From positions 1-20,395 of IMG/VR virus record IMGVR_UViG_3300042923_000156: 20,395 nucleotides of DNA; one strand, 5' to 3'. Shown here piece after piece: positions 1 to 20,395 of the stretch. This DNA comes from a virus. How positions within the stretch are numbered: the stretch's first letter is position 1; every line of letters starts with the position of its first letter. The position numbers and the translations under genes are program-made. The notes beneath the pieces are model-generated. The model ran no database searches. It was not told where the DNA came from and was given only the letters and a program-made list of their open reading frames with translations.

Positions 1-26
1 AAATAGGGTCCCGCACACAATTATTA
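1..26. repeat. Left inverted terminal repeat (replication origin end)
   Basis: The first 26 bases (beginning AAATAGGGTCCCGC) are the exact reverse complement of the last 26 bases of the window, and identity stops at base 27. Short perfect inverted repeats at the ends of a linear genome that also encodes a protein-primed polymerase mark the termini where terminal protein is covalently attached and replication starts. The AAA start resembles the repetitive 3-base ends used by phi29-type phages for sliding-back initiation. That mechanism is inferred. Confidence 0.95.
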
Positions 27-1940: not shown

Positions 1941-2273
1941 TCACTTATCGCGGCGCGGCTTGTGCTTCGGCACAAGAATGAAAGTCAACGTGACTTCACC
2001 CTTATAAATAGGGTTGCCACTCTTCTCCCGCTCACCTACCTTTTCGCGCTTGCTGTCATCGCGGCTCTTGAGTGATGCCGTACGGTCTACCGCGTTAGCG
2101 GCTTCCGCGATGAGCACACGCTGTGCAGTCTCCTTTGCGGCATCGAGTGTCACAGTCCACGCGGTAGCGGGCTCTTTATCCGCCGCCGCTTTGAATGCGA
2201 CCATTGTTTCCGCGTAGGGATTAACCTTTTCTTCCGCAGTGAACGTGCCGAAAGTGCCGATTGTGTTTGCCAT
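1941..2273 (-). CDS. Conserved hypothetical protein, paralogue of the 15851-16255 gene
   Basis: This 110-aa protein (start preceded by AAAGGA, 7-nt spacer) aligns without gaps over about 104 residues with the product of 15851-16255, about 72% identical by eye. Shared stretches include WTVT, RTASLK/KTASLK, RDDSKR, REKSGNP, GEVTLTF and LVPKHK. The Lys/Arg-rich C-terminus would fit nucleic-acid binding, which is inference. It lacks the acidic, proline-rich C-terminal tail of its paralogue and sits in the left accessory module, so it is a diverged second copy under different control. Function unknown. Confidence 0.85.
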   Translation of the reverse strand: MANTIGTFGTFTAEEKVNPYAETMVAFKAAADKEPATAWTVTLDAAKETAQRVLIAEAANAVDRTASLKSRDDSKREKVGEREKSGNPIYKGEVTLTFILVPKHKPRRDK

Positions 2274-2319: not shown

Positions 2320-2691
2320 TTAGTTGTAAGTAATGGTTACGGGTTCCTGCCAAATTGACTTAACGCCGATACCGAATCCCAAAGCATGCTGGAATGTGAC
2401 GTCAATTTCAATCTTGCAGTTGTCCCAGCATTCACCATTCAGCATTGACTGAATGCTGTATAGCGAACGCTCATCAGTGTGTCCCAGTAGTGAAATGATT
2501 ACAGATTCACACTGGCGTGCATCGAATACTGCCGAATTACCGTGTGCAAGATTCAGCACTTGAGAGCGAATTCGATCAATCGACACACTGTCATCTGCGC
2601 GCCAGTAAACGGATCCGTGAGCGCTTTTCAGTTGCACGCTATGAACGGTGCCTGCAATTGATTTGCTGTTGTCAATGTTGATGAATGTCAT
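2320..2691 (-). CDS. Hypothetical protein (123 aa), first gene of the left module
   Basis: The start at 2689-2691 is chosen because AAAGG lies 6-7 nt upstream. A longer in-frame reading to 2814 would translate through the 2723-2766 hairpin and give a Arg/Pro-rich extension unlike the rest. The product (MTFINIDNSKSIAGTVHS..., with ESVIISLLGHTDERSLYSIQSML near 62-84) has no recognised family. As the gene next to the DnaA-box island it is the one most directly exposed to regulation from there. Confidence 0.7.
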   Translation of the reverse strand: MTFINIDNSKSIAGTVHSVQLKSAHGSVYWRADDSVSIDRIRSQVLNLAHGNSAVFDARQCESVIISLLGHTDERSLYSIQSMLNGECWDNCKIEIDVTFQHALGFGIGVKSIWQEPVTITYN

Positions 2692-3015: not shown

Positions 3016-3223
3016 TTATCCACAGGGTTATCCACAGTCCAGCCGGTACAGTTATAAGTTATCCACAGGGCTATCCACAGGTTTCTGTGGATAAGTCATC
3101 AAAGATTAATTTTTCCTGTGCATCCCGGGCGTGTTGCGATTTTGACTTGACTTTTGAGTTATCCACAGCCTGTTAGCGAACTGTGGAGAGTCATCCACAG
3201 GGTTATCCACAACCTGTGGATAA
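3016..3223. promoter_or_regulatory. oriC-like cluster of DnaA boxes
   Basis: Exact TTATCCACA occurs on the plus strand at 3016, 3028, 3059, 3159 and 3203, and on the minus strand at 3086-3094 and 3215-3223. Near-matches lie at 3071 (CTATCCACA), 3191 (TCATCCACA) and 3182-3190. Three pairs are spaced exactly 12 bp apart with GGG between boxes (3016/3028, 3059/3071, 3191/3203). Two pairs form inverted repeats (3072-3093 and 3203-3223). An AT-rich stretch (about 3095-3120) separates the two groups. TTATCCACA is the established bacterial DnaA-box consensus. Seven exact 9-mers in 208 bp cannot be chance. Confidence 0.9.
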
Positions 3224-3248
3224 CTTTGTATCAACACAACCCGCGCGT

Positions 3249-3265
3249 GCGCGCATAATGCGCGC
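3249..3265. promoter_or_regulatory. 17-bp GC palindrome
   Basis: GCGCGCAT (3249-3256) and ATGCGCGC (3258-3265) form a perfect palindrome around one base, between the DnaA boxes and the late terminator. It is operator-like; its binding partner is unknown. Confidence 0.45.
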
Positions 3266-3333
3266 GAAAACTTCATTTTCATTCTGAATAGCGAGTTTCT
3301 GAAAACGTATTTTACTATTTGTTTGTACGCGAA

Positions 3334-3367
3334 AACCGTGAGGGTCATTATTTAGACCCCCACGGTT
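3334..3367 (-). terminator. Rho-independent terminator of the late operon
   Basis: Arms of 13 nt (3334-3346 and 3355-3367, one mismatch; AACCGTG...CACGGTT) surround an 8-nt AT loop. On the minus strand the stem is followed by TTTTC. It closes the long right-to-left transcription unit before the DnaA-box island, so the left module needs its own promoter. Confidence 0.7.
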
Positions 3368-5410: not shown

Positions 5411-6553
5411 CTATCTCTTAAACACCGGTATAAAGGCATTACGGGTGGATGCTACTTCAAACCTCATCCTATCATGCCGGTAGGCTGATCGTAGCATGCC
5501 CATAGTTTTGTCCTGAAAAGTGGCGAGCCTTTTACCTTCACTCATCCATTCCTCAACGAGCGTGACAAAGTCCTCGTCATTGGCTGGACGCTTCTCCTGG
5601 CAATAGAAGAAATTAGTTTTTGCATCATACCATACGCTAAAGATTCCATTCTGTGTCTCAACAGTGTACACATAGGTTGCGGTCTTTGGCTTGCGACCAA
5701 TCATGCTTTTATGATTGTCAGAGAATTTATTACCTACTGCATAATCGGCATAGTCTGGATCGGTTGCACGAATAAACTGCCCAAATTCAGTTGCCTCAAT
5801 CTCAGCTTCAAATGCCTCTGAAACTGGGAAGTGCCATAGCATCTGATACGTACCATTATCGCGCGGCACCATAAAGATGAAGTTGTTTTCATCCTGCTTA
5901 TCAGGGTCAACTTTATAATGTATAAAGTAGGGGTTTTCGATCCGTACAGCGTTTGCAAGTAGTAGAACGCGAACACCTGGCCGATACCGTGAAACAGTGT
6001 TGTAAAAGTTGACAAGTTTAGTCGGCTCATTTGGTAGGTACTGCCCTCCCTTTTCAATAATAAACTCGTCATAAGTGATTGTCGAAACTTTAGGAAACTG
6101 TGCAGACTTAAAGTGCGACGCCTGCGACAAAGCAACAAAATAGCCAATTACAGCCCATGGTCGGTTTTTAAGTTCCGCGTACTTTGTTGGAGATGCTTCT
6201 GCTTTCCACCCTCTAATACGAAAATCCCAATTAGGCCAAACATGTTCAATGTCCGCAAAGAACGTTTCCTTAGCAATTGCTAGTTCTTCCTTATAGCGAC
6301 GAAGATAAATAAATTGCTTATCAACCGATTCAACTTCGTGAACGGTAACCATCTTCTTAGTGTTGCGACCTCGACCATTAACTTCTTTTTCAATAGCCTT
6401 AAACTTAATTGTTCTAAGTGAGTCGTTAATACTTTTTCGCTTACTTCCCCAGGTCTTACCCATGCCACGACCGCCACAAACGCCATTCCATGTGGCATTA
6501 AAAGAAAACAGTTTAGCAAAATCGTAGTACTCAGTAATCGCGTTAGTGCTCAT
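5411..6553 (-). CDS. DNA packaging ATPase (phi29 gp16-like)
   Basis: A 380-aa motor protein that pumps DNA into the prohead. Walker A is GGRGMGKT (27-34) and Walker B is TITYDEF (158-164, with D162-E163), followed by VLLLANAV (196-203) in the sensor region. This is the gp16/FtsK-HerA-like arrangement of phi29-family packaging enzymes. Residues 50-77 carry a basic insertion (EVNGRGRNTKK). The C-terminal domain (about 230-380) corresponds to the nucleic-acid-binding part of gp16. The start overlaps the M23 gene stop as ATGA. The gene lies before the lysis genes, whereas in phi29 it follows them. Part of it (6114-6154) is duplicated at the left end. Confidence 0.95.
   Translation of the reverse strand: MSTNAITEYYDFAKLFSFNATWNGVCGGRGMGKTWGSKRKSINDSLRTIKFKAIEKEVNGRGRNTKKMVTVHEVESVDKQFIYLRRYKEELAIAKETFFADIEHVWPNWDFRIRGWKAEASPTKYAELKNRPWAVIGYFVALSQASHFKSAQFPKVSTITYDEFIIEKGGQYLPNEPTKLVNFYNTVSRYRPGVRVLLLANAVRIENPYFIHYKVDPDKQDENNFIFMVPRDNGTYQMLWHFPVSEAFEAEIEATEFGQFIRATDPDYADYAVGNKFSDNHKSMIGRKPKTATYVYTVETQNGIFSVWYDAKTNFFYCQEKRPANDEDFVTLVEEWMSEGKRLATFQDKTMGMLRSAYRHDRMRFEVASTRNAFIPVFKR
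6114..6154 (+). repeat. Source copy of the ATPase fragment found at 123-163
   Basis: This internal segment of the ATPase gene, just N-terminal to Walker B (encoding around WAVIGYFVALSQAS), is the apparent donor of the left-end copy. Two differences are seen over 41 bases, one within the central 38. Confidence 0.9.
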
Positions 6554-9613: not shown

Positions 9614-10378
9614 TTATCTCCAATATCCTTCGCGTGCAAAATACTCATCGCCACTGTCGAGAACAAGCATAAACATTTCCTCAACCTCCGCAAGAACCAT
9701 CGTATCAATGTTAATGATTGAATTGCGGAATTTATTGATAAGGTCAGATGCCGCACCTTGATAACCGGTAACCAAGTTTTCAGAATTAGCGTCTTGGCTA
9801 CTGTTTGCTTCGGATTCATTTGTTGCGGAAGTGTCCGCTGTGCTATCGCCACTAGAATCCGTTCCAGTAGTGGCATAGTCCCCGCTAGGTGAAAGTGAAA
9901 CCTGCGGAAAATTTGAATTAACGACGTGTGCGTTAGATGTTGACTTGCTATCGCTATCGGTCTTAGAATCTGTTTTCTCGTTCCCCTCTACGTGATTGCT
10001 TCCAATGCTCTGAATTCGCATTGTGTCTAGTGCGCTGTACTCAATCATTGTAGACTCGTACAACTGATTAAAGAACGGCATGATCTCATCCATCTTTGCG
10101 GCAAATCGCTGTGCCCACATTTCGATGGTTTCCTGACCGATTTCCCGGTAGAAATATGAGTTGATGATCTTACCGTTTAGAATCTTGCGATAGTTTTCAT
10201 CAAAGATTGGATAATACTCAAGACCGAGTGGCGCGTAATCTGGGATAATTGGCATGCGACCATACTTTGCGCCATTAAATGAAAGTTCTTCATACTCAAG
10301 AACGTAGTCATCAGGGTCCATAGTCTCACCGAATAGTGATTCCAAGACCTCTTCAACTCGCAGAGTGAAAGAGCCCAT
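9614..10378 (-). CDS. Lower collar (tail tube) protein, phi29 gp11-like
   Basis: A 254-aa structural protein that joins the portal to the tail knob. The N-terminal half (40-120; PIIPDYAPLGLEYYPIFDENYR, YFYREIGQETIEMWAQRF, IMPFFNQLYEST) has the typical lower-collar pattern. Residues 127-201 are a Ser/Thr/Asp/Asn-rich low-complexity linker, followed by a helical C-terminus. The family has a similar disordered insertion before its C-terminal helices. The start overlaps the portal stop as TAATG, indicating translational coupling. Position and order (10-11-12) match phi29. Confidence 0.9.
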   Translation of the reverse strand: MGSFTLRVEEVLESLFGETMDPDDYVLEYEELSFNGAKYGRMPIIPDYAPLGLEYYPIFDENYRKILNGKIINSYFYREIGQETIEMWAQRFAAKMDEIMPFFNQLYESTMIEYSALDTMRIQSIGSNHVEGNEKTDSKTDSDSKSTSNAHVVNSNFPQVSLSPSGDYATTGTDSSGDSTADTSATNESEANSSQDANSENLVTGYQGAASDLINKFRNSIINIDTMVLAEVEEMFMLVLDSGDEYFAREGYWR

Positions 10379-15850: not shown

Positions 15851-16255
15851 TTACTTAGATGCAGGCTTAGGCGTCGGCTTAGGCGCATCCTCAGCCGGTG
15901 CCTCATCCATCTCAACACCATTAGCATCGGTAGTGCGACGGGCCTTGTGCTTAGGCACCAGAACGAAAGTCAGAGTAACTTCACCCTGATAAACAGGGTT
16001 GCCGCTCTTCTCGCGCGTACCAACAACGGTGCGCTTCGAGTCATCGCGGGCCTTAAGCGAAGCCGTCTTACCAAGCGCGTTAGCCGCCTCAGCGATTGAC
16101 ACGCGCTCAGTAATCTCCTTTGCCGCATCAATCGTGACAGTCCACGAAGTCTTAGGGTCCTTAGCGGCCGCCTCAGCGAAAGCCTCAAAGGTCTCCTTAT
16201 AGGGGTTCTCCTTCTCAGGAGCAACATACGTTCCGAAAGTTCCGATGGGAGCCAT
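15851..16255 (-). CDS. Conserved hypothetical protein, possible DNA-binding replication accessory
   Basis: A 134-aa product, about 72% identical by eye over 104 residues to the 1941-2273 protein. The core (IGTFGTYVAPEKENPY; WTVTIDAAKEI; KTASLKARDDSKR; GEVTLTFVLVPKHKARR) is followed by a unique acidic and Pro/Ala-rich tail (about 112-134). The start at 16253-16255 has AAAGGA 9 nt upstream; the longer reading would begin inside the 16294-16324 hairpin. It lies between the polymerase and morphogenesis genes. The phi29 dsDNA-binding protein gp6 is otherwise unaccounted for, so a gp6-like role is possible, but no sequence motif shows it. Confidence 0.85.
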   Translation of the reverse strand: MAPIGTFGTYVAPEKENPYKETFEAFAEAAAKDPKTSWTVTIDAAKEITERVSIAEAANALGKTASLKARDDSKRTVVGTREKSGNPVYQGEVTLTFVLVPKHKARRTTDANGVEMDEAPAEDAPKPTPKPASK

Positions 16256-16269
16256 TTCAATCATTCCTT

Positions 16270-16351: not shown

Positions 16352-18109
16352 CTAGCGAAGTTTCAACTCAAAAGGTACATCACGCAGAACAACCCCGCCC
16401 GGCACCACCTGAGGATTCAGTTTACCGTGAATAATTTTACCGTCTTTAAGATCGTCAAAAGTCAACGCACCAGACGTCTCAATTGGTAGCCCAGCAATTC
16501 TGTTAACATACTCGCCGTCATGTTTCAGTTCGAGATACGCTTTCGGCCGAATGTAAAAGGCATTCTTAAAGTTGTATTCGTGCTTCCATGCACCAAGTTT
16601 TGTCGGGTGAATATCAATGGAATCTGGAATCGAATCCTGCAAAAGATGTAGGCTGTCCGTGTCCGCGTAAGCGAATACTGGATAGTTGTTCTGAGCGGCA
16701 CGGATTGTGATATCTCTCGCATATGAAGTGATAAACACACCTGCCGCTGTGTAAACGGGATCACGAGTTTCAGGGTCTGATCGAACCAAACGAACTTTAC
16801 CATCTTCGAGGACGGGAATTTTTGACGTAACGTTGGGGTTTGACGCAAACTTTCCATAAAGACTATTAAGATGTAGCTTTGCAATCTCACGTTTTCCTCC
16901 TGTTTCGTTCGCTTTGATTTCCGACCATTTATCAATGTATGTGTCAAACAAGCCAGTTTCAGCCTTGAAAGACCATCCGCCTTCATAAGACAAAACTTCA
17001 ATGTCATAGTGGTCTAGGTACAAATCCCAGTCCACATTTGTCACCATAAGCGTTGTTGGCTCAGTAATCTCTCGCAGATACTCAGTACCAACAAACATGT
17101 TAGTACCCTTGATCTGAATGCATGGGATGTGATCTTTCTTCAACTTCCCTGTAAACGTCACACTAAAAATTGTCAGCGGGTACTCGTCAGTAGGGTTTGG
17201 AGCACCCTTAAACGGTTGCGGCATGTCATACGGGATGGGGTATGACTTCATAACATGCGGATAAAGGGAATTAACATCAAGCACAAGGCCAGAACCTACA
17301 ATGCGCCCAGAAAACCTAGGATCTGCATACGTGAAGCCGCCACGATATGCCCGTCTAATGTCACTATCAATCTCGAAATGTAGTGTGGGGAAGAGTGAAT
17401 CGAAATACTTTGCACCATTGAGTTTCTTGTACTCGGCCAGAGCGTCACTTGCAACAGTCAATTTAGTCATCCCATTCGCTATAACTTGCTTCATTGCCTG
17501 AGCGATGATAGAAACATCGCGCCTCACATAGTCTTCTTCTTCAGCATCCAGCACATGCCCAACCGGGCGAAACTTCTTATAATCAAGTTCACCCTTAGAC
17601 ATTTCCAAATTGAATGACTTAGCAATTCGCCGCACACCCATTGGAAGTTTCTTTAGCGAATCTCTAAACTCTGTCGTGAAACCGGTGTCCCACTTCACAG
17701 TAATAGAGTAAAACTTGCCCATATCAGAAATGAGCGTTTTAAAGGTGTTGGTCATTCCCAACACCTTTTCTTCAAGGTGTATGTAGCCGTGCTTCAAAAG
17801 CCAATCAAGGATGAAAGCACCGTCGAATCTGAGATTGTGGAAGTAGACTGTTCCGTTTCCCCTAGAAACTCTCTCCATGAACGAGCCGACATTGTTTCCA
17901 ATTTCGACTTTTTCATATTCTGGAGTATCAATGGGCACGAATCCCCAAGCCCACACTCGGCAATCGTGAGGATCTGTTGTTGTCTCGAAGTCTGCACAGT
18001 AGTCAATCCTTGTGTCTTTCTTGCCACGGCTACTAGTTCGCGGCTTCTTAATTACTTCTCTAACCGATGCCGCATTCTTCGTAAAGAATGCGTCAAGAGT
18101 CATTGACAT
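16352..18109 (-). CDS. Protein-primed family-B DNA polymerase (phi29 type)
   Basis: A 585-aa replicative polymerase, primed by the terminal protein. Exonuclease motifs: Exo I D40-F-E42-T, Exo II N92-L-R-F-D96, Exo III Y194-x3-D198. The YRGG-F linker motif is at 255-259. Polymerase motif A is D278-V-N-S-L-Y-P, motif B K411-L-H-L-N-S-L-Y-G, motif C Y481-A-D-T-D-S, and the KxY motif K523-A-Y. All catalytic residues are present, so it should be active in synthesis, proofreading and strand displacement. Length is close to the 575 aa of phi29 polymerase. Start overlaps the upstream stop as TAATG; a second ATG follows two codons later. Confidence 0.98.
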   Translation of the reverse strand: MSMTLDAFFTKNAASVREVIKKPRTSSRGKKDTRIDYCADFETTTDPHDCRVWAWGFVPIDTPEYEKVEIGNNVGSFMERVSRGNGTVYFHNLRFDGAFILDWLLKHGYIHLEEKVLGMTNTFKTLISDMGKFYSITVKWDTGFTTEFRDSLKKLPMGVRRIAKSFNLEMSKGELDYKKFRPVGHVLDAEEEDYVRRDVSIIAQAMKQVIANGMTKLTVASDALAEYKKLNGAKYFDSLFPTLHFEIDSDIRRAYRGGFTYADPRFSGRIVGSGLVLDVNSLYPHVMKSYPIPYDMPQPFKGAPNPTDEYPLTIFSVTFTGKLKKDHIPCIQIKGTNMFVGTEYLREITEPTTLMVTNVDWDLYLDHYDIEVLSYEGGWSFKAETGLFDTYIDKWSEIKANETGGKREIAKLHLNSLYGKFASNPNVTSKIPVLEDGKVRLVRSDPETRDPVYTAAGVFITSYARDITIRAAQNNYPVFAYADTDSLHLLQDSIPDSIDIHPTKLGAWKHEYNFKNAFYIRPKAYLELKHDGEYVNRIAGLPIETSGALTFDDLKDGKIIHGKLNPQVVPGGVVLRDVPFELKLR

Positions 18110-19032
18110 TATTTACCCTTACGCTGACGGCGATCCACGCGGAAATCGTTGCGCTGTGTTTTCAGATTAGCCTGCTGTTGAGCAACCCCAGCCTCTCGCG
18201 TGGCTTTACGCTTTTCACTTTCATCAATAGCCCAATCGGCGGCAGGGATAGCCTCATGGAATTTCTGCTCAATAACTCTATCCTGACGTCGCTCCTTAAA
18301 GTTACCCTCATTACGCTCCTTTTCAAGTTCGTAAAAGAGGAAAATTCCAGAAGCAACGTTAGTGCCAAACCAGAAAAGGTCAAAGGCGTCATCATCCATT
18401 TGATGCACCTTAACCTCAAGAGAAAGATTGTCGCCAATTTCAGAGGCTCGCTCACTATCGCCAAGATAGTCAAGAACTTTCTGCAAGCGCTCACGCTCTT
18501 CAGAAAGTTTTTCACCAAGGTATTCAGGCCGCATCTGATCTTTTAGTTGCGCCGTCAACTTCTCCATTGCACTCTGGCTCGCAATATCAGACGCTTCACG
18601 ATCGAATCGCTTATACGGTCCAAAACGCCCATGGCCTCCAGCCTTAGGAAGCGCCGTAGCAAGATCTTTAATAGCAAACCCTGTCGGGGACTTAACACCG
18701 CTAAGGTTGTCATCCCGCCTATTTTGAAGATCATCGAGCCTACGCTCAGTGGGCTTGTAAATCTTGTTAAAGTAGCCCGCGCGCAAAGGTGCGCCACCCT
18801 GCCCCGCTACAAACTGGTTGCTACGATTCATAAATGTCTTAAGTTCGCCAAGATATTCACGCATACGTTCCGGGCTACGCATACGATTATGGGCGCTAGG
18901 GTCGCGGCGAGGATCAAACTCAGAGCCGCCGACCTTAGCGCCCTTAGTGCGCTCAGTACGGTTAATCTTATTACTTACTGCTTTATATGCCTTGTCAATT
19001 TCTTTCTTAAGGCGCTCGCTCTCAGCGCTCAT
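18109..19032 (-). CDS. Terminal protein (replication primer), by position
   Basis: A 307-aa protein encoded directly upstream of, and overlapping, the polymerase gene, as the terminal protein is in phi29 (266 aa). It is highly charged and helical: a basic N-terminal domain (1-75), an intermediate region (NQFVAGQGGAPLRAGYF, about 72-88), and a long helical part (about 155-215). The C-terminus is Lys/Arg-rich (RKATREAG...DRRQRKGK). In phi29 the primer residue is a Ser near the C-terminal domain; the equivalent cannot be assigned here. No transmembrane segments. Start overlaps the 53-aa gene as ATGA. Position and composition support the call; sequence alone would not. Confidence 0.8.
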   Translation of the reverse strand: MSAESERLKKEIDKAYKAVSNKINRTERTKGAKVGGSEFDPRRDPSAHNRMRSPERMREYLGELKTFMNRSNQFVAGQGGAPLRAGYFNKIYKPTERRLDDLQNRRDDNLSGVKSPTGFAIKDLATALPKAGGHGRFGPYKRFDREASDIASQSAMEKLTAQLKDQMRPEYLGEKLSEERERLQKVLDYLGDSERASEIGDNLSLEVKVHQMDDDAFDLFWFGTNVASGIFLFYELEKERNEGNFKERRQDRVIEQKFHEAIPAADWAIDESEKRKATREAGVAQQQANLKTQRNDFRVDRRQRKGK

Positions 19033-19303: not shown

Positions 19304-19756
19304 TCAGACGTACTTAAGCGTCAGGAAGAAGAATCCGTTACGACCCTTTTCGCGAACCGCGCGAACCTCAAGCGGCTCCTCCCAAGTGTCCGGCGTACCG
19401 AACATCGACGGGTGAAGAACCTGCTTGAGCGACTGAGCGATGCCCTTAGAAGTGGCGTAATACGCCTCTCCATCCTCAGCAACGAGCGTGGTACGAATAC
19501 CGGACTCAAGTTCGCCCGTGTTCTCGTTCGCAATATCGACCTCCTGGAGAACGATATCAACCACGCGAACAGCAAAACCGTCCTTGCCAGCCTCAGTGGC
19601 AAGATCGTTGAGCGACTTGGCGCTGTTGACTGCCTGAAGATACTTCATCTTTTCAGCGCGCGTGTTCGTCTTGAGCGACGAGTAAACACCCGCCGCCTCA
19701 GTGATGCTCTCAACCGTGGCGCGAACGGGGGTCTGAACTGCAACTGCATCCGACAT
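19304..19756 (-). CDS. Probable single-stranded DNA-binding protein (phi29 gp5 position)
   Basis: A 150-aa product of the first gene of the operon, with a strong ribosome binding site (AAGGAG, 6-nt spacer). The N-terminal third is helical; residues 62-150 form a beta-rich domain (VRVVDIVLQEVDIAN, GIRTTLVAEDGEAYYATSKGIAQSL, PLEVRAVREK, ending FFFLTLKYV). This pattern resembles the phi29-group SSBs and related small-phage proteins that coat the displaced strand. The call rests on fold pattern and place in the replication block. Its leader shares a 14-bp repeat with the 15851-16255 gene. Confidence 0.65.
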   Translation of the reverse strand: MSDAVAVQTPVRATVESITEAAGVYSSLKTNTRAEKMKYLQAVNSAKSLNDLATEAGKDGFAVRVVDIVLQEVDIANENTGELESGIRTTLVAEDGEAYYATSKGIAQSLKQVLHPSMFGTPDTWEEPLEVRAVREKGRNGFFFLTLKYV

Positions 19757-20369: not shown

Positions 20370-20395
20370 TAATAATTGTGTGCGGGACCCTATTT
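20370..20395. repeat. Right inverted terminal repeat (replication origin end)
   Basis: Exact reverse complement of positions 1-26, ending ...GGGACCCTATTT. Both ends being present shows that the window is a complete linear genome rather than a fragment. Confidence 0.95.

Follow-up and report, generated by a model that had tools for sequence, protein, structure and literature searches.

Background

The closest described systems to the locus reported here are bacterial origins, DnaA titration loci, DnaA-regulated promoters and the injection stop region of phage T5. In oriC, clustered and phased consensus DnaA boxes are intergenic, with an AT-rich segment nearby, a GC-skew switch and dnaA and dnaN as neighbors. 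Titration loci are clusters of high-affinity boxes outside an origin: plasmids carrying DnaA boxes titrate DnaA and raise the initiation mass, and E. coli datA titrates strongly (PMC5835720), while DnaA-box clusters of B. subtilis sequester DnaA and so inhibit initiation (PMC11019786). The prophage-encoded protein YfdR has been reported to target DnaA (PMC4776307). For DnaA-regulated promoters such as B. subtilis sda and E. coli nrdAB, the boxes are located upstream of the promoter at set distances. The T5 injection stop signal is described as carrying repeats, palindromes and DnaA boxes that presumably contact host components (PMC13250531, 2026). For phi29-like phages, literature searches turned up no description of a DnaA array.

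The phage genome

The window, i.e. the whole analyzed stretch of 20,395 bp and the full length of its record, belongs to a protein-primed, linear, phi29-like podovirus of bacteria. It encodes a family-B polymerase, a single-strand DNA-binding protein (SSB), phi29-like morphogenesis genes and, by position alone, a terminal protein, the candidate for which has no PHROG match (Table 1). The identical inverted ends of 26 bp each (AAATAGGGTCCCGCACACAATTATTA) indicate that the record is very probably complete, and the gene order resembles that of phi29-like phages of Curtobacterium, Microbacterium and Arthrobacter. Polymerase, SSB, ends and gene order thus agree with the original prediction of a protein-primed linear phage with terminal repeats. 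Two further repeats were noted: an 18-nt near-inverted internal copy of the terminal repeat sequence (GGGTCCCGCACACAATTA) at 99-116, near the left end, and a 41-nt direct repeat, 95% identical, whose copies are located at 123-163 in the right-end module and at 6114-6154 inside the packaging ATPase gene. A DNA-level search of the region against 50,697 phage records gave no match. Among bacterial genomes the polymerase has only two distant matches (43-44%), both in MAG contigs, and therefore no direct host is indicated.

The DnaA-box array

Exact copies of the DnaA box TTATCCACA occur seven times in the window, all at 3016-3223 and nowhere else in the 20,395 bp, compared with an expectation of 0.169 for the whole window under a first-order Markov model; the chance bound for seven exact boxes in 208 bp is about 6e-21. 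The DnaA-box array is real. The seven exact boxes and at least two near-matches originally described were all recovered, the latter being one-mismatch boxes at 3071 and 3191 and a weak reverse-strand box at 3182, as were the three pairs with 12-bp spacing (3016/3028, 3059/3071 and 3191/3203) and the two inverted pairs (3071+/3086- and 3203+/3215-). The supposed AT-rich gap inside the array did not hold up, as the gap at 3095-3158 lies at the 36th percentile of 50-bp stability and is not specially unstable. It remains correct that the array is non-random, conforms to the DnaA-box consensus and is found in a phage whose replication should proceed without DnaA. The DnaA profile (PF00308) has no match in this genome, and no dnaA gene scored above the cut-off in 50 further box-bearing viral contigs. 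Contamination with host chromosome was considered and rejected, as independent contigs carry their arrays at one and the same position and the window lacks dnaA.

Host DnaA is the predicted ligand of these sites. It is very improbable that some other protein, of phage or host, happens to read TTATCCACA, given that this 9-mer is the exact classic DnaA box, shows the spacing of described DnaA arrays and is found again in phages that are unrelated and infect unrelated hosts.

Table 1. Features of the window discussed in the text
Feature	Positions	Strand	Remark
Inverted terminal repeat, left	1..26		'right end', on the side of the small-gene module
Right-module paralogue (110 aa) of post-polymerase gene 15851-16258	1941..2273	-
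First gene of right-end small-gene module	2320..2691	-	123 aa; downstream of the array
Exact DnaA box TTATCCACA	3016..3024	+
Exact DnaA box	3028..3036	+	12 bp after box 3016
Exact DnaA box	3059..3067	+
One-mismatch box CTATCCACA	3071..3079	+
Exact DnaA box, inverted	3086..3094	-
Motif M, CAACACGCCCGGGATGCA	3119..3136	-	element upstream of promoters in Microbacterium phages
Exact DnaA box	3159..3167	+
Weak box CTCTCCACA	3182..3190	-	weak box also at this alignment position in G004, G005, G007 and G025
One-mismatch box TCATCCACA	3191..3199	+
Exact DnaA box	3203..3211	+
Exact DnaA box, inverted partner of 3203-3211	3215..3223	-	pair with the highest conservation in the clade
AT-rich segment of lowest stability, located between array and terminator	~3274..3323		0.6th percentile of stability
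Imperfect hairpin AACCGTGGGGGTC...GACCCTCACGGTT, probable late-operon terminator	3334..3367	-
Protein-primed family-B DNA polymerase	16352..18109	-	PHROGs match
Putative terminal protein	18109..19032	-	between SSB and polymerase, as in relatives
Phage SSB	19304..19756	-	PHROGs match
Inverted terminal repeat, polymerase end	20370..20395

Distribution and conservation in phi29-like relatives

Polymerase relatives were collected from IMG/VR and their entire records were scanned for boxes. Box clusters were identified in 12 records, namely the window and eleven uncultured relatives, with exact boxes numbering 7 in the window, 8 in G004, 3 in G005, 5 in G006, 4 in G007, 3 in G008, 2 in G014, 6 in G015, 3 in G022, 4 in G025, 13 in G027 and 7 in G029. 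In the polymerase tree all 12 belong to one 19-member phi29-like clade (support 94/88). The array is conserved and clade-specific, and its position is constant in all 12 genomes, where it occupies the gap that separates the late-operon terminator from the right-end small-gene module. As four of the 19 members are partial contigs that stop short of the region, 15 are informative, and 12 of these keep the array, the exceptions being the sister genomes G010 and G028 together with G026. The named isolates scanned (phages of Curtobacterium, Microbacterium, Arthrobacter, Glutamicibacter, Rhizobium, Actinomyces and Bacillus) carry no box cluster. Close relatives that lack the boxes and keep the flanking genes had been named as a sign of passive acquisition; G010 and G028 do lack the boxes and retain flanking sequence, but on the tree they are most simply explained as losses within a clade that keeps the array in 12 of 15 informative members. 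The array is therefore dispensable in some lineages, but it is not a one-off passive acquisition.

Within the islands, identity is 82% in box columns versus 46% in other columns, while the neighboring genes change. In gene orientation, the reverse of the window's, the conserved core reads TTATCCACA-3-TGTGGATAA-3-TGTGGATAA, continues in five members with a weak TCTCCACA box and then has TGTGGATAA boxes again about 56 and 68 bp past the first. The 53 spacings between neighboring boxes include 25 of 11-13 bp and 10 of 20-21 bp, with phasing near 10.5 bp (R=0.70); kinship of the sequences inflates these counts, and the phasing is no more than suggestive (p about 0.07) when the 18 distinct spacings alone are considered.

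The composition of the arrays bears on titration as their main role, in which the array would serve mostly as a DnaA sponge and the replicating phage DNA would halt new rounds of host replication, sparing nucleotides. The 12 islands hold 65 exact consensus boxes versus 17 with one mismatch, i.e. dense boxes of high-affinity consensus outside an origin, and the number of boxes ranges freely between 2 and 13, both as expected of a sponge. Like datA and the B. subtilis clusters, the array is a non-origin cluster of high-affinity boxes that could in principle sequester DnaA; unlike them, it resides on a phage genome at a fixed place and with a conserved layout. A sponge, however, needs no fixed place, conserved order, phasing or promoter spacing, and the members with 2-4 boxes (G014, G005, G008 and G022) would be weak sponges. 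We therefore regard titration as rather unlikely to be the primary function.

Flanking regions and the question of a second origin

In gene orientation, the late genes are followed by a terminator-like hairpin, the AT-rich segment, the array, in several members a TTGACA element, the small-gene module and the right terminal repeat. At the place of the imperfect hairpin of the window, perfect hairpins are found in G005-G008, G015 and G025. The low-stability segment is located 80-190 bp upstream of the array and does not exceed the 0.6th percentile of stability in 10 of the 12 genomes; it is also retained in the box-less G010 and G028. The genes of the right-end module are mostly non-homologous between clade members. 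The product of its first gene in the window has no Pfam match. For the product of the paralogue at 1941..2273, the AlphaFold model (pLDDT 81) gave weak matches only, repeatedly to Alba nucleic-acid-binding proteins (best E 0.13), and this protein is perhaps a DNA-binding protein with a role like that of phi29 p6.

A second origin, at which host DnaA would open the island and load the host replisome for plasmid-like persistence or an extra mode of replication, was one of the three options originally put forward. An oriC-like box cluster accompanied by a low-stability segment is compatible with it, and Streptomyces linear replicons, which combine a linear genome with a terminal protein, provide a precedent of form. 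Like oriC, the array consists of clustered and phased consensus boxes in intergenic DNA near an AT-rich segment; unlike oriC, it has no skew switch and no dnaA or dnaN neighbors, its AT-rich segment persists in box-less relatives, and the boxes may be as few as two, with only 2-3 exact ones in G014, G005, G008 and G022. From left to right of the island, the gene-strand GC skew drops in 10 of the 12 genomes, stays level in one and increases in another, a drop being opposite to the pattern of an active bidirectional origin, although gene content differs between the two sides. No DnaA gene is present, and neither Rep nor partition domains were seen among the right-module proteins tested. An oriC-type origin, tested by skew, stability and gene content, was accordingly placed last of the three; we consider it very improbable. 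Overall, the array resembles a switch next to the genes used first, which may double as a DnaA sponge, more than it does a second origin.

Promoters beside the boxes

A forward TTGACA within 60 bp downstream of the array was found in 6 of the 12 genomes versus 0.4 expected, although these genomes are related and do not represent six independent events; upstream of the array or in reverse sense, TTGACA was found in none of the 12. The gap between array and TTGACA is 17 bp in G005, G007, G015 and G025, 29 bp in G006 and 39 bp in G008, where a degenerate extra box in the gap brings the nearest box-like site to about 29 bp. The -10 matches in these relatives are weak to moderate, the best being CATTAT. 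No TTGACA is present within 60 bp downstream in the window, G004, G014, G022, G027 or G029, and the window has no convincing consensus promoter adjoining its array.

Similar arrangements are more general in phage DNA. Among 57 distinct cases in IMG/VR of a TGTGGATAA pair followed by TTGACA, 24 have gaps of 17-21 bp (p 2.9e-6), and 21 of 54 do so after removal of the clade itself (p 5e-5), these p-values being somewhat optimistic as the range was picked after viewing the histogram. Two control patterns were flatter at these gaps, with 7 of 33 and 6 of 47. TANNNT occurs 16-18 bp from TTGACA in 35 of the 57 cases (4.6% expected at equal base frequencies), and the cases are mostly promoter-like, resembling the sigma-70 type; as TANNNT is equally frequent at other gaps, it supports promoters near boxes generally and not the 17-21 bp spacing. 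Box pairs and promoters are thus linked in phage DNA at large. In several viral contigs (L318, L319, L309, L323, L096, L098, L345 and L334), with the pair about 17-19 bp upstream of TTGACA, an extra exact DnaA box is located inside the -35/-10 spacer.

The Microbacterium phages Zooman, A3Wally and Big4, with genomes of 192-195 kb, are unrelated to the clade. Like the arrays of the relatives, they carry a DnaA-box pair directly upstream of a promoter: in Big4 the pair is followed after 15 nt by TTGTAC-18-TATACT, and in Zooman and A3Wally by motif M and then a promoter. They differ from the clade in being another kind of phage with only 2-3 boxes. Motif M, shared by Zooman and A3Wally with the window and G010, is followed in the window by no consensus -35/-10. 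The box-less flank of G010 has motif M (CGACACGCCCGGGATGCA) directly before TTGACA-17-TAAATT, and that of G028 has an M-like element before TTGCCA-17-TAACTT. Among the 50,697 phage records, motif M matches 54 Microbacterium phages of several unrelated kinds and one Mycobacterium record, and in Microbacterium phages it is found upstream of promoter-like sequences. A published Microbacterium phage survey mentions neither DnaA nor the letters of motif M. From shared motifs only, Microbacterium or one of its close relatives is the probable host of the window.

In G015 (L198) and G025 (L268), the array promoter is closely followed by a structured RNA of about 127 nt with an 18-bp closing helix, the sequence of which differs between the two while pairing is kept; a role in packaging is possible, as is some other noncoding-RNA function. 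A clade-wide packaging RNA was rejected, as the structure is confined to these two genomes. Rfam has no match in the window, and the relatives gave only sub-threshold chance matches.

Taken with the DnaA-regulated promoters, these data are best accounted for by an array that serves the right-end small-gene module as a DnaA-responsive operator and adjusts its transcription, with titration as a probable by-product. As at sda and nrdAB, candidate promoter elements follow the boxes at defined distances in some relatives, with a -35 in G005-G008, G015 and G025, and box pairs precede promoters in the unrelated phages; unlike sda and nrdAB, the phage arrays are larger and occur on lytic phages, and in the window such spacing was not found and no promoter is evident. 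The lack of a clear promoter beside the array of the window is the weak point of the operator reading, against which also count the 13 boxes of G027, more than an ordinary operator needs, and the ability of G010, G028 and G026 to manage without boxes. Control of the adjacent small genes, the third of the original options, is the best supported of them, by relatives and unrelated phages and not by the window's own promoter. We favor the operator tentatively, placing it a little short of an even chance; it is the best single account, with titration next, and both may hold.

Arrays in unrelated phages and DNA entry

The 36-nt core has matches in 257 phage records, of which a spread sample of 58 shows a median separation from the closer record end of 6% of the length. 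By lineage, 16 of 24 groups with similar arrays have them no more than 12% away from an end of the record (p about 1e-5), the groups having been chosen by eye and the ends being arbitrary in circularly permuted or circularized records. The T5-like phage SP15 has four boxes in its noncoding pre-early region. In the T7-like Klebsiella phage K10PH82C1 (L277), a noncoding pair of DnaA boxes with 12-bp spacing is located ahead of the early genes at 3244-3264, and the unannotated 20.9-kb faecal phage contig MT836067 (L274) has a dense set of eight exact boxes near its middle, at 9760-10113.

DNA of phi29 enters the cell right end first. By this analogy we infer that the right-end module of the clade is the first to enter, in which case DnaA bound to the boxes behind it could pause entry in a T5-stop-like manner so that the first genes are expressed first. 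The array is located 2-16% from the right end in 12 of 12 records, and the boxes of SP15, the description of the T5 injection stop and the end-proximity of most lineage groups point the same way. Like the T5 region, the array is noncoding, repetitive, proximal to the presumed entry end and beside genes probably expressed first, with pairs of DnaA boxes; unlike T5, the clade is of an unrelated phage type and replicates by protein priming. However, it is itself unproven that DnaA boxes take part in the entry of T5 DNA, and to our knowledge the two-step entry of phi29 works without such boxes. End-proximity is equally expected of early promoters, with record ends partly arbitrary and groups assigned by eye. 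An entry-pause site is thus an improbable explanation.

Proposed role and implications

Under the operator reading, host DnaA would bind the boxes, which are helically phased and separate the late-operon terminator from the right-end module. This module probably comprises early genes and would be the first into the cell. Bound DnaA would modulate transcription of the module, either by activation from upstream or by repression or road-blocking. As genome copies accumulate, the boxes would soak up DnaA, the promoter state would change and host initiation would tend to stop.

In lytic phages of many unrelated kinds (phi29-like, T5-like, T7-like, large Microbacterium and Streptomyces phages, and lactococcal 949-like phages), DnaA-box arrays may have come by convergence to lie next to the early genes that enter first, the host initiator serving as a sensor and switch through which viral genome entry, copy number and early transcription are coupled to a stop of host replication. 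We offer this generalization as speculation and regard it as rather unlikely.

A virus that replicates without the host initiator nonetheless keeps an ordered array of its predicted sites. If DnaA controls the early genes or is soaked up by the array, host takeover would be exerted through DNA sites and not through a viral protein. That unrelated lytic phages repeatedly have such arrays close to their ends makes the idea testable in isolates with cultured hosts, such as Zooman, Big4 and T5-like phages, and bears on what the DnaA boxes do in the injection stop region of T5.
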